A DNA stretch of 64,000 nt from Chitinophaga pinensis (GTDB lineage: Bacteria; Bacteroidota; Bacteroidia; Chitinophagales; CAMDFR01). The position numbers were made by a program, and so were the translations under genes. The stretch is taken from assembly GCA_945860705.1 (NCBI GenBank), contig CAMART010000013.1, positions 1 through 64,000 of the forward strand, read 5' to 3'. The notes under the pieces are model-generated. The model was not told the DNA's origin, ran no database searches, and was given only the letters and a program-made list of their open reading frames with translations. Of the stretch, positions 1,513 through 62,496 are shown in pieces; position 1 is the stretch's first letter; every line of letters begins with the position of its first letter.

Positions 1513-3117
1513 CTATTTACCATCTGGGCTAGCAAAGAATGCTTTTTGTGCAGCATTTTCAGCATCTAGTTCCTTTAGTTTTGTATAGTACTCTTTTGCT
1601 TTTACAATATCTTTAGTATTTTTCCATGCCTCAGAACCTAAATATTCTAGTGCCATTTTAATATTATTTACATTTTTAGCATCTGCAAAATCAACTTTTG
1701 ATAAATAAGCTTCAAAATGTGGTTTTGCTAAGTATAGAGTATTACCTGGATCCATAGAAGCATTAACTACTGCTCTATTAAGATAAGCATTTGCAAAACT
1801 TGGACTTTTCTCCGCTACTTTTGCATAGGCACCATCAGCATTTTGAAAATCTTTTAAGTTTTTATAGCTATTTCCTAAGTTATTATACTCTGTAGCAGAC
1901 AAATCTTTACCCATTGCTATTTTTTTAAGATATGCTTGAATTGCATCTGTATATTTTTTTTGCTTATACAATGAATTTGCAATATCAGTTTGAATATCTA
2001 CATTGTTTGTATCAATTTTCATAGCTTCGTTCAAGTATGTTACTCCTATGCTATCATTTCCAGTTTTGCTATATCCCATACCCATATACTTATAGTCTAG
2101 TGCTATCGTTTTTATATCACCTTTATTAGACATAAAGTTATTTAAGTTAGATAATCCGTTGGTAAAGTCTCCTGTTTCCATTTGAGAATATCCTAATAGT
2201 CTATCAGCATATTTCCATGTACTACCACTAGATTTGATTTTATTCAATTGAACGATTGCTTCATTGTATTGTTTATTGTCATACAAGAAGTAAGCATATC
2301 TTTGTTGAGCTAACGCACTATTATTCAATTCTAAATATTTTTCATAGTTCTGTATTGCTTGATCTTTTTTTCCAGCTAAGAAATATAATTCAGCTTTCTC
2401 TCTATATGCAGGTACGAATGTAGCATCGATAGCTTCTGCTTCTTTATATAAAGTAAGTGCTTCATTTGGGCTACCAGCTCTTTTATATATTTTACCTTTT
2501 CTGATAATAGCTTTTGTCAATTTAGGATTAAGTACTAATGCTTTATTGTACTCTGCTAATGCACCAGATGCATTTGTTGGGTCTTTTTCCAATACTAAAT
2601 CACCTTTTAATAAAAACACATCTGTATTTGTAGGATCTAGTCTTTCTGCATCTACAAGTATCAATTCAGCAGCTGCTAAATCTTTTTTAGTAGAATAGAT
2701 ATACGTTTCTGCTATTTCGCAAAGTACTTTAGTTCTTTCAGCTTTTTTAACTGATTTATCATTGATTAAAGTTTTAGCTTTTGTGAAATACTCTGTAGCT
2801 TTATTGATATCACCATTTTCATAGGCCAGTTTTCCAAGTCCTACATTATTCAATGCAGAGTTTGAATTGATGCTCAATCCTTTTTCAAAAGCTGCTTTTG
2901 CTTCAGCTTGTTTTTCCAATTTCAGTAGATTCTGACCTTGATAATAATAGATATCTGCATTAGTAGCATCTGCACTTATTAAAGTATTAAATGCTTTTTC
3001 AGAGCTTTCATAAGCTTCGTTTTCAGAGAGTCTTATTGCATCTGCTAATGTTTGTCCAAAAGTACTACTAGCTATTATTGCACTAGTAAAGAGTGTTAAA
3101 AAAAATTTCTTATTCAT
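1513..3117 (-). CDS. TPR-repeat protein, exported
   Basis: A 534-residue protein with an N-terminal signal peptide (about residues 1-21, ending A-S-S-T-F-G-Q) followed by tetratricopeptide repeats across almost the whole length, for example A-D-I-Y-Y-Y-Q-G-Q-N-L-L near residue 55 and repeated A-x-x-x-x-x-K-A-L units. It is likely a periplasmic scaffold. It is last in a minus-strand run with a small membrane protein and a PstS-like lipoprotein (30 bases from the latter). The order TonB, PstS-like, TPR recurs in Bacteroidota near ExbB/ExbD/TonB genes, which suggests an envelope role linked to proton-motive-force machinery. The partner and the exact job cannot be read from sequence. Confidence 0.8.
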   Translation of the reverse strand: MNKKFFLTLFTSAIIASSTFGQTLADAIRLSENEAYESSEKAFNTLISADATNADIYYYQGQNLLKLEKQAEAKAAFEKGLSINSNSALNNVGLGKLAYENGDINKATEYFTKAKTLINDKSVKKAERTKVLCEIAETYIYSTKKDLAAAELILVDAERLDPTNTDVFLLKGDLVLEKDPTNASGALAEYNKALVLNPKLTKAIIRKGKIYKRAGSPNEALTLYKEAEAIDATFVPAYREKAELYFLAGKKDQAIQNYEKYLELNNSALAQQRYAYFLYDNKQYNEAIVQLNKIKSSGSTWKYADRLLGYSQMETGDFTNGLSNLNNFMSNKGDIKTIALDYKYMGMGYSKTGNDSIGVTYLNEAMKIDTNNVDIQTDIANSLYKQKKYTDAIQAYLKKIAMGKDLSATEYNNLGNSYKNLKDFQNADGAYAKVAEKSPSFANAYLNRAVVNASMDPGNTLYLAKPHFEAYLSKVDFADAKNVNNIKMALEYLGSEAWKNTKDIVKAKEYYTKLKELDAENAAQKAFFASPDGK

Positions 3118-3147
3118 AAGTCAAAGATAGTTTCTTTTTTATTTTAA

Positions 3148-4086
3148 TTAATGTTCAATATTTATTTTCACAGTTCTAGTAGGAACTATTGCAGGAACTA
3201 TGCCATTTTTTAAAATGATGAGTTGTCCCTTCTCTCCAGCCACATAAGAGGTAAATCCAGATACCAATCCATTGCCTCCTTCGGTATTGATCATATAGAG
3301 TTTTCTGGTATATGGATACTCATCACTACTGATATATCCTTGTAGTGGCAAAAATGCTTCACTAGTTTCATCTTTTTTCACAGCTACTAGACTAATTTTA
3401 TTGAGTAAGGCATTGCAAGAGCTATCATCTCTGTCGCTTATCCATCCATTGCTTATTATTCCTATAGCTCCTGGATATTTTGCTACATAATCAAAAACCG
3501 CCATATTATTTCCTGCCACTGTGATGTTTGAGGGAAAAGTATTTGAATGGATAAAACTATCTTTCAAATAACGTGCATTCGAGCTTCTTTGATTGTCCAG
3601 TACCACAACTAAACTTGAATTTAAAGAGCCATTATTATTCAAGTCTTTCCAATTTTTTGCTTTTCCAGATAGTATTTGGTCTATTTGCTTCTTTGTAAAT
3701 ACAGAATCTGGATTATTTTTATTTACAATAAATGACACGGCATCTTTAGCTATCTCCACCATTCTAGGTTGAATATTTCTTGCTTTAAAAATAGCTATTT
3801 CATTTGGATTTAATTCTCTACTAATCACTGCCAAATCTACACTATCATCTATCAACGCTTTTATTGCCTCTTCTTCTGGAATATATCTCTCATTAATAGT
3901 AGCATCTGCATATTTACTCATAAAAGTAAATACTTGTGTACTCATCAAAACATAGTAACTCTCATCTACGCAAATATTCTCTTTGCCTTGTGTAGGGGTA
4001 TCACGCTCGTTGGCTGGTGTATAGTTGCATGAACTTGCAAAAACAATTATTCCTAATAAAAAACAGCTATTAAAGTAACTCTTCAT
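3148..4086 (-). CDS. PstS-like substrate-binding lipoprotein
   Basis: A 312-residue protein with a lipoprotein signal (lipobox F-A-S-S-C, Cys20), so probably anchored in a membrane facing the periplasm. The body resembles the PBP-like phosphate-binding fold: V-D-L-A-V-I-S-R-E-L near residue 83, a K-D-A-V-S-F-I-V-N segment, and G-A-I-G-I-I-S-N-G-W later. No pstCAB transporter genes lie nearby, so binding to an ABC transporter is not supported by context. It overlaps the upstream small membrane gene by 17 bases, which indicates translational coupling. It could bind phosphate or another oxyanion, or serve an ExbB/ExbD/TonB-associated role. Confidence 0.75.
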   Translation of the reverse strand: MKSYFNSCFLLGIIVFASSCNYTPANERDTPTQGKENICVDESYYVLMSTQVFTFMSKYADATINERYIPEEEAIKALIDDSVDLAVISRELNPNEIAIFKARNIQPRMVEIAKDAVSFIVNKNNPDSVFTKKQIDQILSGKAKNWKDLNNNGSLNSSLVVVLDNQRSSNARYLKDSFIHSNTFPSNITVAGNNMAVFDYVAKYPGAIGIISNGWISDRDDSSCNALLNKISLVAVKKDETSEAFLPLQGYISSDEYPYTRKLYMINTEGGNGLVSGFTSYVAGEKGQLIILKNGIVPAIVPTRTVKINIEH

Positions 4087-4291
4087 GATCTTTTGCTTTT
4101 ATGATTTGATAAAAACGAATCCCTCTAACTGCAGCATATAATAAAAAAATACATCCTAGAATAGTTCTATTGCTTCCACTAATTAATTCTAAATTAATAT
4201 TTGTTGTAAGCATACCGATACCAATCACCAATATGATTATAATCATCACTAGGCTAAATATATTCATTGGGTGCATCCACTTCGTATTCAT
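4070..4291 (-). CDS. Small two-helix membrane protein
   Basis: A 73-residue protein with two hydrophobic segments (about residues 11-31 and 40-57) and a charged C-terminus. It overlaps the PstS-like gene by 17 bases and has its own upstream space after the TonB terminator, so the two are likely co-translated. The ATG at 4291 is followed by a second in-frame ATG eight codons later (M-H-P-M-N); either could be used. I do not recognise a family. Confidence 0.65.
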   Translation of the reverse strand: MNTKWMHPMNIFSLVMIIIILVIGIGMLTTNINLELISGSNRTILGCIFLLYAAVRGIRFYQIIKAKDHEELL

Positions 4292-4340
4292 TATATATAT
4301 ATATTTTGGTTTGCAATATTATACTTATTGTGTGAATTAA

Positions 4341-4381
4341 AAAAAGCCTATGTCTTAAATTCTTTAATTCATAGGCTTTTT
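4341..4381 (-). terminator. Terminator after tonB
   Basis: A perfect 12-bp stem (4341-4352 with 4370-4381, core AGCCTATG / CATAGGCT) flanked by A and T runs, so it could work in either direction. It lies directly beyond the stop of the TonB gene at 4387. Confidence 0.8.
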
Positions 4382-4386
4382 TAAGA

Positions 4387-5235
4387 TTAATTATCTTTCA
4401 ATACAAAATTGATGGGCAGATAAAAGTAAACTCGTGCTGGTTGACCGCCACTCATACCTGGTTTCCATTTTTTCATACTTTTTACTACTCGTAATGCCTC
4501 TTTATTTAGTTGTGTAAAACCTCCGCCTTTCACTACTTCTGCATTTCCTACACTTCCATCTTTTTCAATTACAAATTTCACCACTACTTTAGATTGTTCA
4601 CCAAGTTCTCTAGACATAGTAGGATAATTTACTGTACTACTTATATATTTAAATAAAGCTGATTCACCTCCTTCGTATTCTGGCAAGACATCTGGAAAAG
4701 AATAAATAGTATTATCTTCTTCTATAACATTAGGTTTTACTCCGCCTGTGACATTAGTTGTAGGTATTATTGGATCTGGGTCTACATCTGTAACTGGATC
4801 TTTAGCATTGATATCAGCATGTGGGTTATTGATAATAGGGACATCACTAGTAACTACTTCATTGTCTACTAAATCAACTCTTGATAAGTCCAAACCTCTT
4901 ACTTTCTGTATTTCAGGTTTAATATCCACTTTTGGAGGATCTAATTTTAAAATTGGTTTTATTGGTGGTGGTATATCATACACAATGTTTTTTACAATAA
5001 TGCCTCCATCGTCAAATTTTGGAAGATGTACTATATCATGTTTTACCAAAAACTGAGTGCATAATAGTGCAACTAGCAATCCTGTAGCACCTATCACAGA
5101 ATAAATAAGTACCATATCATAATCTCTACGAAGTTGATAAGCTCCATACATTTTGTTTCTGTTTTCAAAAACAAGGTCGTTTCTTCCATTATCCAATGGG
5201 CTAGACCAGTCTAATAATATTTTTTGTAATAACAT
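4387..5235 (-). CDS. tonB: Energy transducer TonB
   Basis: A 282-residue protein with the Bacteroidota-type TonB N-terminus (F-E-N-R-N-K-M-Y-G-A-Y-Q-L-R, about residues 23-36), one membrane helix at about 42-64, a proline- and aspartate-rich periplasmic spacer (about 85-180) and the C-terminal TonB domain from about 187 (Y-E-G-G-E-S-A-L, then V-K-F-V-I-E-K-D-G-S-V and the terminal Y-F-Y-L-P-I-N-F). It would transfer inner-membrane proton-motive energy to outer-membrane receptors. ExbB/ExbD are not in the window. The gene is followed by a strong terminator. Confidence 0.9.
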   Translation of the reverse strand: MLLQKILLDWSSPLDNGRNDLVFENRNKMYGAYQLRRDYDMVLIYSVIGATGLLVALLCTQFLVKHDIVHLPKFDDGGIIVKNIVYDIPPPIKPILKLDPPKVDIKPEIQKVRGLDLSRVDLVDNEVVTSDVPIINNPHADINAKDPVTDVDPDPIIPTTNVTGGVKPNVIEEDNTIYSFPDVLPEYEGGESALFKYISSTVNYPTMSRELGEQSKVVVKFVIEKDGSVGNAEVVKGGGFTQLNKEALRVVKSMKKWKPGMSGGQPARVYFYLPINFVLKDN

Positions 5236-5313: not shown

Positions 5314-5331
5314 TTGTCATATTATTGTCAT
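5314..5331 (+). promoter_or_regulatory. Candidate Pho box (PhoB operator)
   Basis: Two identical TTGTCAT repeats (5314-5320 and 5325-5331) are separated by the 4-base AT spacer ATTA, an 11-bp period. The established PhoB operator of Proteobacteria is two CTGTCAT repeats with a 4-bp AT-rich spacer. The site is upstream of a phosphate-type porin and a Pit transporter. It is about 55 bases upstream of the candidate minus-33 element, farther than in classical Pho promoters. Confidence 0.6.
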
Positions 5332-5384
5332 AAGAAAATGTTAATTAAATATGCATATGTTAAAAAATCTTAATAAACTTAATA

Positions 5385-5412
5385 TTGAGTTAACATTAGA
5401 ATTTAATCTTTG
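5385..5412 (+). promoter_or_regulatory. Candidate promoter for the phosphate-type porin
   Basis: A TTG at 5385-5387 and AATCTTTG at 5405-5412 have the spacing of Bacteroidota minus-33/minus-7 elements. The minus-7 box deviates in its first base from TAnnTTTG. Confidence 0.4.
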
Positions 5413-5467
5413 CATAACATAATCTTAATATAAGGATTAGAAGCATAACATTAAATTAATATAACAA

Positions 5468-6718
5468 ATGAATATTAAGAGAGAATTAAAAATAAAAACC
5501 TTAATCTTTTTAAGTTTGATATTTTTCAATATTACAGCTTTGAAATCTCAATCAAGCGATAGCATATCTGATTTCAATAATAAACTTGAAAAACAAGAGT
5601 CAGAAAAAAAATGGTATGACAATATATCTATTAGAGGTTATACCCAAATAAGATATAATCGTTTACTTGAATCTAATGAAGATTTAGGTTGCGAACAATG
5701 CGATAAATCTTGGGGAAAAGGTGGAGGTTTTTTTATCAGGCGATTACGTGTTATTTTATCTGGGCAATTAGGAAAACATATTTATTTTTATATTCAACCG
5801 GACTTTGCAAGTGCTCCAGTTTCAGATAAACTAAATTTTACTCAAATACGAGATGCTTACGTAGATGTTAACTTTGATAAAAAAGCAGAATTTAGATTTA
5901 GAATAGGACAAAGTAAAGTTCCTTACGGTTTTGAAAACTTGCAATCTAGTCAAAACAGACTAGCTTTAGATCGTAATGATGCCCTTAATAGTGCTGTAAC
6001 AAATGAACGAGATATTGGAGTATTTTTTTATTGGGCACCTGAAAAAAAGAGAAAATTATTCTCTGAACTTGTCAGATCAGGTCTTAAAGGAAGCGGGGAT
6101 TATGGCGTTATTGGATTTGGCGTATTCAATGGTCAAACAGCAAATGCCTTAGAATTAAATAAACAACCTCATGTAATAATAAGAGCTACATATCCATTTG
6201 AAATTAAAAAACAAATAATAGAAGTAGGTATACAAGGATACATGGGTAAATATGTTTTACCTGTATCAAATCTTAGTAAAGGTGTAAAAGTTAGAGAAGA
6301 TTTAACATATAAAGATCAACGAGTAGCAGCATCATTTATGTTATATCCTAAGCCATTTGGTATACAAGCTGAATATAATTTTGGTCGTGGACCAGAATTT
6401 AATAAAAATACTGATTCTATCGAATTACAAAATCTACATGGTGGATATATACAAATGATGTATAATCTTAAAATTAAAAAGCATATCCTAATTCCTTTTG
6501 TAAAATATCAATATTATAATGGTGGCAAAAAACATGAAAAGGATGCAAGAAGCTACGAAGTGAGTGATTTTGAAATTGGATTTGAGTGGCAACCATTAAA
6601 ATATTTTGAATTTGTTGCAAATTATACTTTCTCAAATAGAAGATATGAGGATTTTTCAAAACCTAATAATTTCCAATCTGGAAGATTATTACGACTACAA
6701 GCACAGTTAAATTTTTAA
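5468..6718 (+). CDS. Phosphate-selective porin O/P family outer-membrane protein
   Basis: A 416-residue protein with a signal peptide (about residues 1-27) and a beta-barrel body of alternating aromatic strands ending in a C-terminal F. It shows the family features R-G-Y-T-Q-I-R-Y-N near residue 57, F-F-I-R-R-L-R-V-I-L-S-G, and the K-V-P-Y-G-F-E motif near 155. OprO/OprP-family porins form trimeric channels for phosphate or polyphosphate. It is directly followed, 81 bases on, by a Pit-type transporter on the same strand, and preceded by a candidate Pho box, so the pair looks like an outer plus inner membrane phosphate route. Substrate is inferred from family and context only. Confidence 0.85.
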   Translation: MNIKRELKIKTLIFLSLIFFNITALKSQSSDSISDFNNKLEKQESEKKWYDNISIRGYTQIRYNRLLESNEDLGCEQCDKSWGKGGGFFIRRLRVILSGQLGKHIYFYIQPDFASAPVSDKLNFTQIRDAYVDVNFDKKAEFRFRIGQSKVPYGFENLQSSQNRLALDRNDALNSAVTNERDIGVFFYWAPEKKRKLFSELVRSGLKGSGDYGVIGFGVFNGQTANALELNKQPHVIIRATYPFEIKKQIIEVGIQGYMGKYVLPVSNLSKGVKVREDLTYKDQRVAASFMLYPKPFGIQAEYNFGRGPEFNKNTDSIELQNLHGGYIQMMYNLKIKKHILIPFVKYQYYNGGKKHEKDARSYEVSDFEIGFEWQPLKYFEFVANYTFSNRRYEDFSKPNNFQSGRLLRLQAQLNF

Positions 6719-6799
6719 AGTTTTTAACATTTACTTAATATTCTAATAATTATAAATTCAATAAATAGTAATAATCTTACACAATAAATTAATTAAAAA

Positions 6800-8194
6800 A
6801 TGGAAATATTTCAATCCTTTTCTGCAATCACAATAGTTCTTTTGGCACTCTGTCTCTTATGTGTATGTGCTTTTGAATTTATCAATGGATTTCATGATAC
6901 AGCCAATGCAGTAGCTACAGTTATATATACAAAATCATTAAAACCATTTACAGCAGTTGTTTACTCAGGTATTCTTAATTTCTTAGGTATGGCTACTAGC
7001 TTATATTTAATAGGCCCAAAAGTAGCTATGGGTATAGTGAAACTGATGCCGATAAATGACATGATGGCTCAGTCTACTGGTGTCGGCATTGCACTAATAT
7101 TTGCTATTCTATTAGCAGCTATTGCATGGAATTTTATCACATGGTATTTAGGGATTCCATGCTCTAGTTCACACACTCTTATTGGTTCGCTTATAGGTGG
7201 TGGTATTGCATTTCAATATTTCTATAAGGGAGCTGGTCCAAACTGGGAAAAAGCTATGGATATAGGTAAGTCTTTGTTATTATCTCCGTTATTTGGTTTT
7301 GCTGTGGTAATTTTACTAATGATTGTACTTCGTTTAATCATAAAAAACAAAGTTTTATTTTCTGAACCTACAGAAGAATCAAAACCACCTATGTGGATTA
7401 GAGCTATTCTATTTGTTACCTGTGGTTTGGTAAGCTTTTTTCATGGTCAAAATGATGGTCAAAAAGGGTTGGGATTATTATTAGTAATATTAATGACTTT
7501 TATTCCATTGCACTTTGCAATTAATAAAAATATGGACATAACTAAAACAACTGCTGAAGTAGATAAATTGATTGGAGATTATACATTGATTTCTTCAAAA
7601 ACTAATAATATAGAAATAGCAAAATCACTAGAAACGGCTGTTGATTTAAAACAAAAATTAGCTTCTCTAAATAAAAATGATAAAAATCAATTATTTGCAG
7701 TAAGAAAAGCCATTGCTTCATTAGTAAAAAATGCAGAATCACTTGAAAAAGACAGTGAATCCAACGTAGATAAAGTATCAATAAAACTAATCAGTACTGA
7801 TTTAAAACCACTAAAGAAACATATAGAGTTCACTCCATTATGGACCGTACTTCTTATTTCATTTTGTCTAGGTTTAGGCACCATGATAGGCTGGAAAAGA
7901 ATAGTAGTAACTATAGGTGAAAAGATTGGTAAAACTCATCTTACCTATGCACAAGGAGCATCAGCAGAATTAGTTGCAGCAACTACAATAGGTTTGAGTT
8001 CTTATTATGGATTACCTGTATCTACCACACATGTACTTTCGAGTGGTATCGCAGGTAGTATGGTGGCAGCAAAAGGGGTGAAAAATCTTCAAAAAAGCAC
8101 TTTAATAAACATAGGATTAGCATGGTTGCTTACTTTACCAGTTACTATTTTATTGGCTGCGTTATTATTTTTTATATTTCACTTATTTATTTAA
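6800..8194 (+). CDS. Inorganic phosphate transporter, Pit family
   Basis: A 464-residue multi-pass inner-membrane protein of the Pit (PiT/PNaS) family. The first signature, G-F-H-D-T-A-N-A-V-A-T, is near residue 30; H-G-Q-N-D-G-Q-K-G-L-G lies near 215; and the C-terminal half carries G-L-P-V-S-T-T-H-V. Pit carriers use proton or sodium symport with metal-phosphate. Between the two membrane halves (about 245-345) sits a roughly 100-residue hydrophilic, Lys/Glu-rich insertion likely to be cytoplasmic and helical. The gene follows the porin and ends at a bidirectional terminator. Confidence 0.9.
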   Translation: MEIFQSFSAITIVLLALCLLCVCAFEFINGFHDTANAVATVIYTKSLKPFTAVVYSGILNFLGMATSLYLIGPKVAMGIVKLMPINDMMAQSTGVGIALIFAILLAAIAWNFITWYLGIPCSSSHTLIGSLIGGGIAFQYFYKGAGPNWEKAMDIGKSLLLSPLFGFAVVILLMIVLRLIIKNKVLFSEPTEESKPPMWIRAILFVTCGLVSFFHGQNDGQKGLGLLLVILMTFIPLHFAINKNMDITKTTAEVDKLIGDYTLISSKTNNIEIAKSLETAVDLKQKLASLNKNDKNQLFAVRKAIASLVKNAESLEKDSESNVDKVSIKLISTDLKPLKKHIEFTPLWTVLLISFCLGLGTMIGWKRIVVTIGEKIGKTHLTYAQGASAELVAATTIGLSSYYGLPVSTTHVLSSGIAGSMVAAKGVKNLQKSTLINIGLAWLLTLPVTILLAALLFFIFHLFI

Positions 8195-62253: not shown

Positions 62254-62496
62254 ATAAAGTACTTACTTATTTTATCCAAAAGTATGCAAATTGAACATAT
62301 TTATCTAACGAATAAAAAACAATGCAACTCATTTAAGATTTCTATAGTCTAATAAAGTAATATGATTTTTGTACAATCTTAAAGTTGACAATAAAATGAC
62401 AATAGTAATACAATAAAAATCATATAGGATAGTTATACAATTATTAAAAAAGCGAAAAAAATCAAAATATGTAAGCCTACTTCTACTTTTCTTTCA

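Follow-up and report, generated by a model that had tools for sequence, protein, structure and literature searches.

The analysed window, a stretch of 64,000 nucleotides from Chitinophaga pinensis (contig CAMART010000013.1, positions 1 to 64,000, forward strand), carries on its plus strand the gene of an OprO/OprP-type phosphate-selective porin (5468-6718; Porin_O_P, PF07396, 115 bits, E = 5e-33), followed by that of a Pit (PHO4) phosphate transporter (6800-8194; PF01384, 277 bits, E = 3e-82). These Pfam assignments bear out the first-pass annotation, which had placed phosphate genes downstream of a repeat at 5314. A gap of 232 bp separates the porin ATG (5468) from the ATG (5235) of a divergent gene encoding a TonB-family protein (4387-5235, minus strand; PF03544). 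This is the first gene of a tonB/PstS-like/TPR cluster (1513-5235) that adjoins the porin and includes, on the same strand, a PstS-like periplasmic binding protein (3148-4086; PF12849, with TIGR02136 scoring below its cut-off). Congeners possess tonB/PstS-like neighbours resembling this cluster. No match to the porin was found in three congeners, whose genomes are 84-93% complete. Among the best 80 of 176 porin orthologues, a crude sequence pattern detected a Pit-like motif near 37.

The repeat at 5314-5331 (TTGTCATATTATTGTCAT, plus strand), read at first pass as a Pho box, lies exactly where it had been reported and consists of two perfect 7-mers with a 4-base AT spacer and an 11-bp period (TTGTCAT-ATTA-TTGTCAT); it ends 136 bases before the porin ATG and is probably no Pho box. 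Only one perfect copy of the pair exists genome-wide. With up to one mismatch it occurs at 6 places in the genome versus 6.1 expected, with up to two at 76 versus 68 expected, and with up to three at 16 places in the window versus 18.3 expected, the genome-wide expectations being window shuffles scaled to 2.94 Mb. A reversed-pattern control (29) gave an apparent enrichment, yet the shuffles provide the more reliable reference, because the reversed 7-mer is itself rarer than TTGTCAT in the window (8 versus 16 copies). That the counts equal the shuffle expectation, together with the lack of conservation upstream of porin orthologues, argues that the pair arose by chance in AT-rich intergenic DNA, and this is the origin that we favour, with some reserve: a perfect pair never appeared when the 232-bp gap was dinucleotide-shuffled 2000 times, although many motifs could have been picked.

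That the TTGTCAT pair is itself the PhoB site of the porin promoter appears highly improbable. The pair is a perfect repeat with PhoB-like spacing in the right gene context, and six of its seven letters are those of the Escherichia coli CTGTCAT unit as given in the available text of PMC4415409. Against this stands the scan of the genome for the motif at other phosphate loci, which the first-pass annotation had suggested and whose negative outcome it had named as counting against its reading: no pair with up to two mismatches, of the 76 places genome-wide, falls at the PhoB-PhoR locus (C2:163000-173000). Nor is the pair conserved, since a match of at least 12/14 is present in at most 1 of 80 porin promoters (best 80 of 176 orthologues) and in 0 of 28 orthologous TonB-receptor promoters, and none of the six porin orthologues of the same order has it. 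Absent from the genome's own PhoB locus, found at chance frequency, lacking conservation at porins and receptors and misfitting the box common to phosphate promoters, the repeat at 5314-5331 was rejected as a Pho box.

A further reading, which we entertain only tentatively, is that the TTGTCAT pair serves a different regulator recognizing 11-bp direct repeats (e.g. RprY or an OmpR-type orphan on contig 9), which would also act on rocD and on genes for secreted proteins. All six copies of the genome with up to one mismatch are intergenic, two further OmpR-type regulators are encoded in the genome, and a TTGTCAT-like triple upstream of an ornithine aminotransferase gene is kept in two congeners. 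The chance-level totals in the own genome stand against this, as does the presence of 5 of 15 congeneric matches inside genes. So does the spacing test of TTGTNAT pairs, based on totals for four genomes and on the individual rows of the own genome (66 pairs there, versus 80 for the reversed control), which gave no convincing 11-bp excess. The genes beside the five best copies other than that at 5314 encode T9SS-secreted proteins, an M1 peptidase, a DNA methyltransferase and what its sequence suggests is an ornithine aminotransferase; none has an evident phosphate role. The triple itself, with an 11-bp period, lies at 62385-62413 of the window, about 110 bp ahead of the ornithine-aminotransferase-like gene; its congeneric counterparts (L160:310-338 and L161:1490-1518) stand in diverged surrounding DNA. 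A tandem TTGTAAT run of about 7 copies was also noted at C26:25341-25389. Overall, the TTGTCAT pair is probably not part of the phosphate switch, being either a product of chance or a target of some other regulator.

A second direct repeat, of the form (C/G)TTAACA-N4-(C/G)TTAACA and again with an 11-bp period, lies some 50 bases closer to the porin. This main candidate Pho box, CTTAATA-TTGA-GTTAACA (CTTAATATTGAGTTAACA; 5378-5395, plus strand), agrees with the pattern at 13 of 14 positions and starts 90 bp upstream of the porin ATG. Two weaker arrays follow on the same strand: a run of half-sites with an 11-bp period at 5402-5430 (TTTAATC at 5402, CATAACA at 5413 and CTTAATA at 5424), within which CATAACATAATCTTAATA (5413-5430) differs from the TTAACA pattern by 2 mismatches, and a third, weak pair, CATAACA-TTAA-ATTAATA (5444-5461), beside the porin start codon. 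In the gap between the porin and pit, a further candidate Pho box with 2 mismatches, TTTAACA-TTTA-CTTAATA (6723-6740, plus strand), is located 77 bp upstream of the pit ATG. The unusual distance upstream remarked on at first pass holds for the 5314 repeat, which starts 154 bp before the porin ATG, and not for the better box at 5378-5395, which begins only 90 bp before it; this accounts for the odd placement.

A scoring matrix built from 69 sites of other genomes, with 0 from this genome, was used to scan both strands of the 64 kb. The five best matches in the window (6723, 5378, 5413, 5444 and 5402, scoring 19.6, 19.4, 17.3, 14.8 and 12.8, respectively) are all on the plus strand within the porin-pit locus, the next match in the window scoring 8.7; the TTGTCAT pair scored -10.6 or lower. 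A score of 19.4 was reached in none of 100 window shuffles, and four matches of at least 12.5 in none of 2000 shuffles of the intergenic gap. When the matrix was derived from 19 receptor promoters alone, i.e. from a different gene family, 5378 ranked first and 6723 second in the window. The sequence TAnnTTTG is a -7 element; no clear one is correctly placed behind 5378 for the porin, the nearest candidate (5405-5412) having one mismatch and being off the usual spacing.

Within the whole genome, STTAACAN4STTAACA with up to 2 mismatches occurs at 40 places, which is fewer than the 153 expected from window shuffles or the 144 of the reversed pattern; the motif is not over-represented in number, and the signal resides in where the places fall. 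The sole perfect match of the genome is situated on contig 2 upstream of an operon comprising a TonB-dependent receptor (TBDT), phoB and phoR, in a promoter with three units at an 11-bp period (CTTAACA-ATAA-GTTAACA-TTGG-CTTAAGT) and a TAnnTTTG element at +49 from the box start. Including this one, only three places have up to one mismatch, the other two being 5378 in the window and C6:89463 (L150:7464-7481), which lies very near the start of a gene for a secreted lamin-tail-domain protein. The places with two mismatches include 5413-5430 and 6723-6740 of the window. Thirty of the 40 places were inspected, of which 6 belong to the PhoB locus or to porin-pit and precede a gene by 55-90 bp. High-scoring boxes were found neither in the genome's own glycosyltransferase/phosphoesterase region nor in the loci of three phosphodiesterase-family genes.

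The boxes of the window recur at the genome's own phoB locus and are conserved at porins, receptors and pst of other Bacteroidota. For the receptors, 28 promoters were available (30 loci minus the own one and L121, which lies at a contig edge), and 22 of them carry the TTAACA box at 12/14 with period 11, compared with 0-3 at other periods, except 13 at 22 bp, and a shuffle mean of 0.47. For the porins, the best 80 of 176 orthologues were taken, from Flavobacteriales, Chitinophagales, Sphingobacteriales, Saprospiraceae, Hymenobacter and others; the box is present at the same threshold and period in 63 of these 80 promoters, versus 3-13 at other periods, except 33 at 22 bp, and in 4 of the 6 orthologues of the same order. 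Control stretches of equal length from the same 80 porin loci reached 12/14 in 37 of 1603 cases, or in 30 of 741 when only AT-rich ones were counted. Of 20 regions that precede pst operons in the order, 10 have an intergenic TTAACA box. This figure comes from longer stretches, which replaced an earlier set in which the promoter was often lost: there, 19 of 30 loci were usable and 6 reached 12/14, with 5 also at period 9 and 5 at period 20, the off-period matches owing in part to a sequence that recurs in four loci of one genus. Taken together, a 12/14 box is missing from 17 of the 80 porins (best 80 of 176), 6 of the 28 receptors and 10 of the 20 pst regions.

Alignment of the sites gives (C/G)TTAACATTnn(C/G)TTAACA plus a weaker third unit. 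Fifteen of the 20 pst loci (9 aligned) entered this profile, L211, L212, L214, L218 and L222 being dropped for a start or promoter that was cut or unclear. The TAnnTTTG element of the other genomes clusters at +38 (n = 9) and +49 (n = 4) from the box start, positions one helical turn apart, with 4 more at +74. Outside the own genus, phoB was not found in a scan of 1.5 kb downstream of the receptor, so that the phosphate role of the receptors there rests on orthology.

Three OmpR/PhoB-type regulators are encoded in the genome. For the one on contig 2 (L086:5596-6273), PhoB is the NCBIfam family that fits best (TIGR02154; a score of 219.7 bits, which falls short of the cut-off of 296.2), its kinase best matches PnpS and PhoR, and the pair sits downstream of the TonB-dependent receptor; the second regulator is RprY-like (335 bits versus a cut-off of 370), and the third is an orphan of no clear type on contig 9. 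No match to PhoU (PF01895), PstC (TIGR02138) or classical alkaline phosphatase (PF00245) was obtained in the whole genome, and the three congeners likewise gave no PstC match.

From sequence evidence, we consider it very probable that the porin and pit are controlled by the PhoB-PhoR system of the genome through TTAACA-type direct repeats, and that the TTGTCAT pair has no part in this control. By analogy with the established action of PhoB/OmpR-family activators, the target of PhoB would be the two (C/G)TTAACA 7-mers at 5378-5395, one helical turn (11 bp) apart, with the weaker half-sites extending this box to 5461 and pit having a separate box at 6723-6740; at low phosphate, phosphorylated PhoB would occupy the TTAACA units in head-to-tail fashion and bring in RNA polymerase, and the bound protein would presumably activate both the porin and pit. 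We infer that PhoB is the box-binding protein, and with it the activation and the response to phosphate, because the box occurs in the promoter of phoB's own operon and likewise in those of porin, pit and pst.

TTAACA by itself does not single out PhoB, and TTAACA/GTTAA repeats are typical of ArcA-like sites too. In favour of a real TTAACA array that some other regulator recognizes is the Riemerella motif, which was found to be ArcA-like, as the available text of PMC9603813 has it. This reading is nonetheless unlikely: the box marks the phoB operon and the porin, pit and pst promoters, for which phosphate is the common factor. The TTAACA repeat, and not the TTGTCAT pair, is the likely phosphate switch of porin-pit. 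The first-pass annotation had the right kind of control and the right genes with the wrong sequence; its 11-bp direct-repeat Pho box at porin-pit stands in the form of the TTAACA units at 5378-5395, which recur at phosphate genes, and falls for TTGTCAT at 5314-5331.

A TTAACA-type Pho box that many Bacteroidota would use is the corrected and more useful finding, reached by computation. We found no published report of such a box in Bacteroidota, in a search outside which lay most subscription-journal papers and all preprints. On balance, we think that Bacteroidota share a phylum-wide Pho box, (C/G)TTAACATT every 11 bp, through which PhoB would control porin, pit, TonB receptors and pst; in this genus the box would work with no Pst and, apparently, no PhoU, so that phosphate would have to be sensed another way. 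Once defined, a Pho box would make the low-phosphate regulon predictable and testable for any Bacteroidota genome, and, as neither PstC nor PhoU families were detected in this genome, one may ask how its PhoR senses phosphate. The finding is also a warning against transferring the E. coli motif, as the best E. coli look-alike in the genome is probably not the switch.

Like the boxes described here, the B. subtilis PhoP box consists of TTAACA-like repeats, of nearly the same unit and period; those of Bacteroidota differ in lying before porin-pit, TonB receptors and phoB, with a -7 element TAnnTTTG. The Pho box of E. coli, according to the available text of PMC4415409, consists of two 7-mers of the CTGTCAT unit in direct repeat with a 4-base spacer. 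The present boxes share with it the two direct-repeat 7-mers, the 4-base spacer, the 11-bp unit and the position upstream of phosphate genes, but their unit is (C/G)TTAACA(TT), not CTGTCAT; the TTGTCAT pair resembles the E. coli unit more, yet fails the conservation tests. Within the phylum, a DAP-seq motif for the Riemerella anatipestifer 'PhoP' has TTTAACA as its most conserved bases, and its authors describe this PhoP as raised in phosphate starvation (PMC9603813). A PhoB that reads TTAACA agrees with this TTTAACA core of a possibly orthologous regulator; the Riemerella case differs in that the available text presents the sequence as an ArcA-like motif of a global virulence regulator with 583 peaks, and not as a Pho box of phosphate genes (PMC9603813). 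For Bacteroides fragilis, pstC expression at low phosphate needs PhoB, no motif being given in the available text (PMC3547664), and putative Pho boxes are mentioned for plcP clusters of marine bacteria, likewise with no motif in the text available (PMC4796936). In Flavobacterium johnsoniae, the OprP gene of the phoBR operon shows no low-phosphate induction in the published table, which counts against a simple general rule, and the available text of that study gives no binding motif and contains the words 'Pho box' 0 times (PMC8115612). Its low-phosphate regulon includes phoBR beside a TonB receptor, in an arrangement reported as low-phosphate-induced and like that on contig 2 here, and the glycosyltransferase and calcineurin-like phosphoesterase near the contig 2 PhoB-PhoR locus recall, by domain only, the lipid-remodelling genes of F. 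johnsoniae (PMC8115612).
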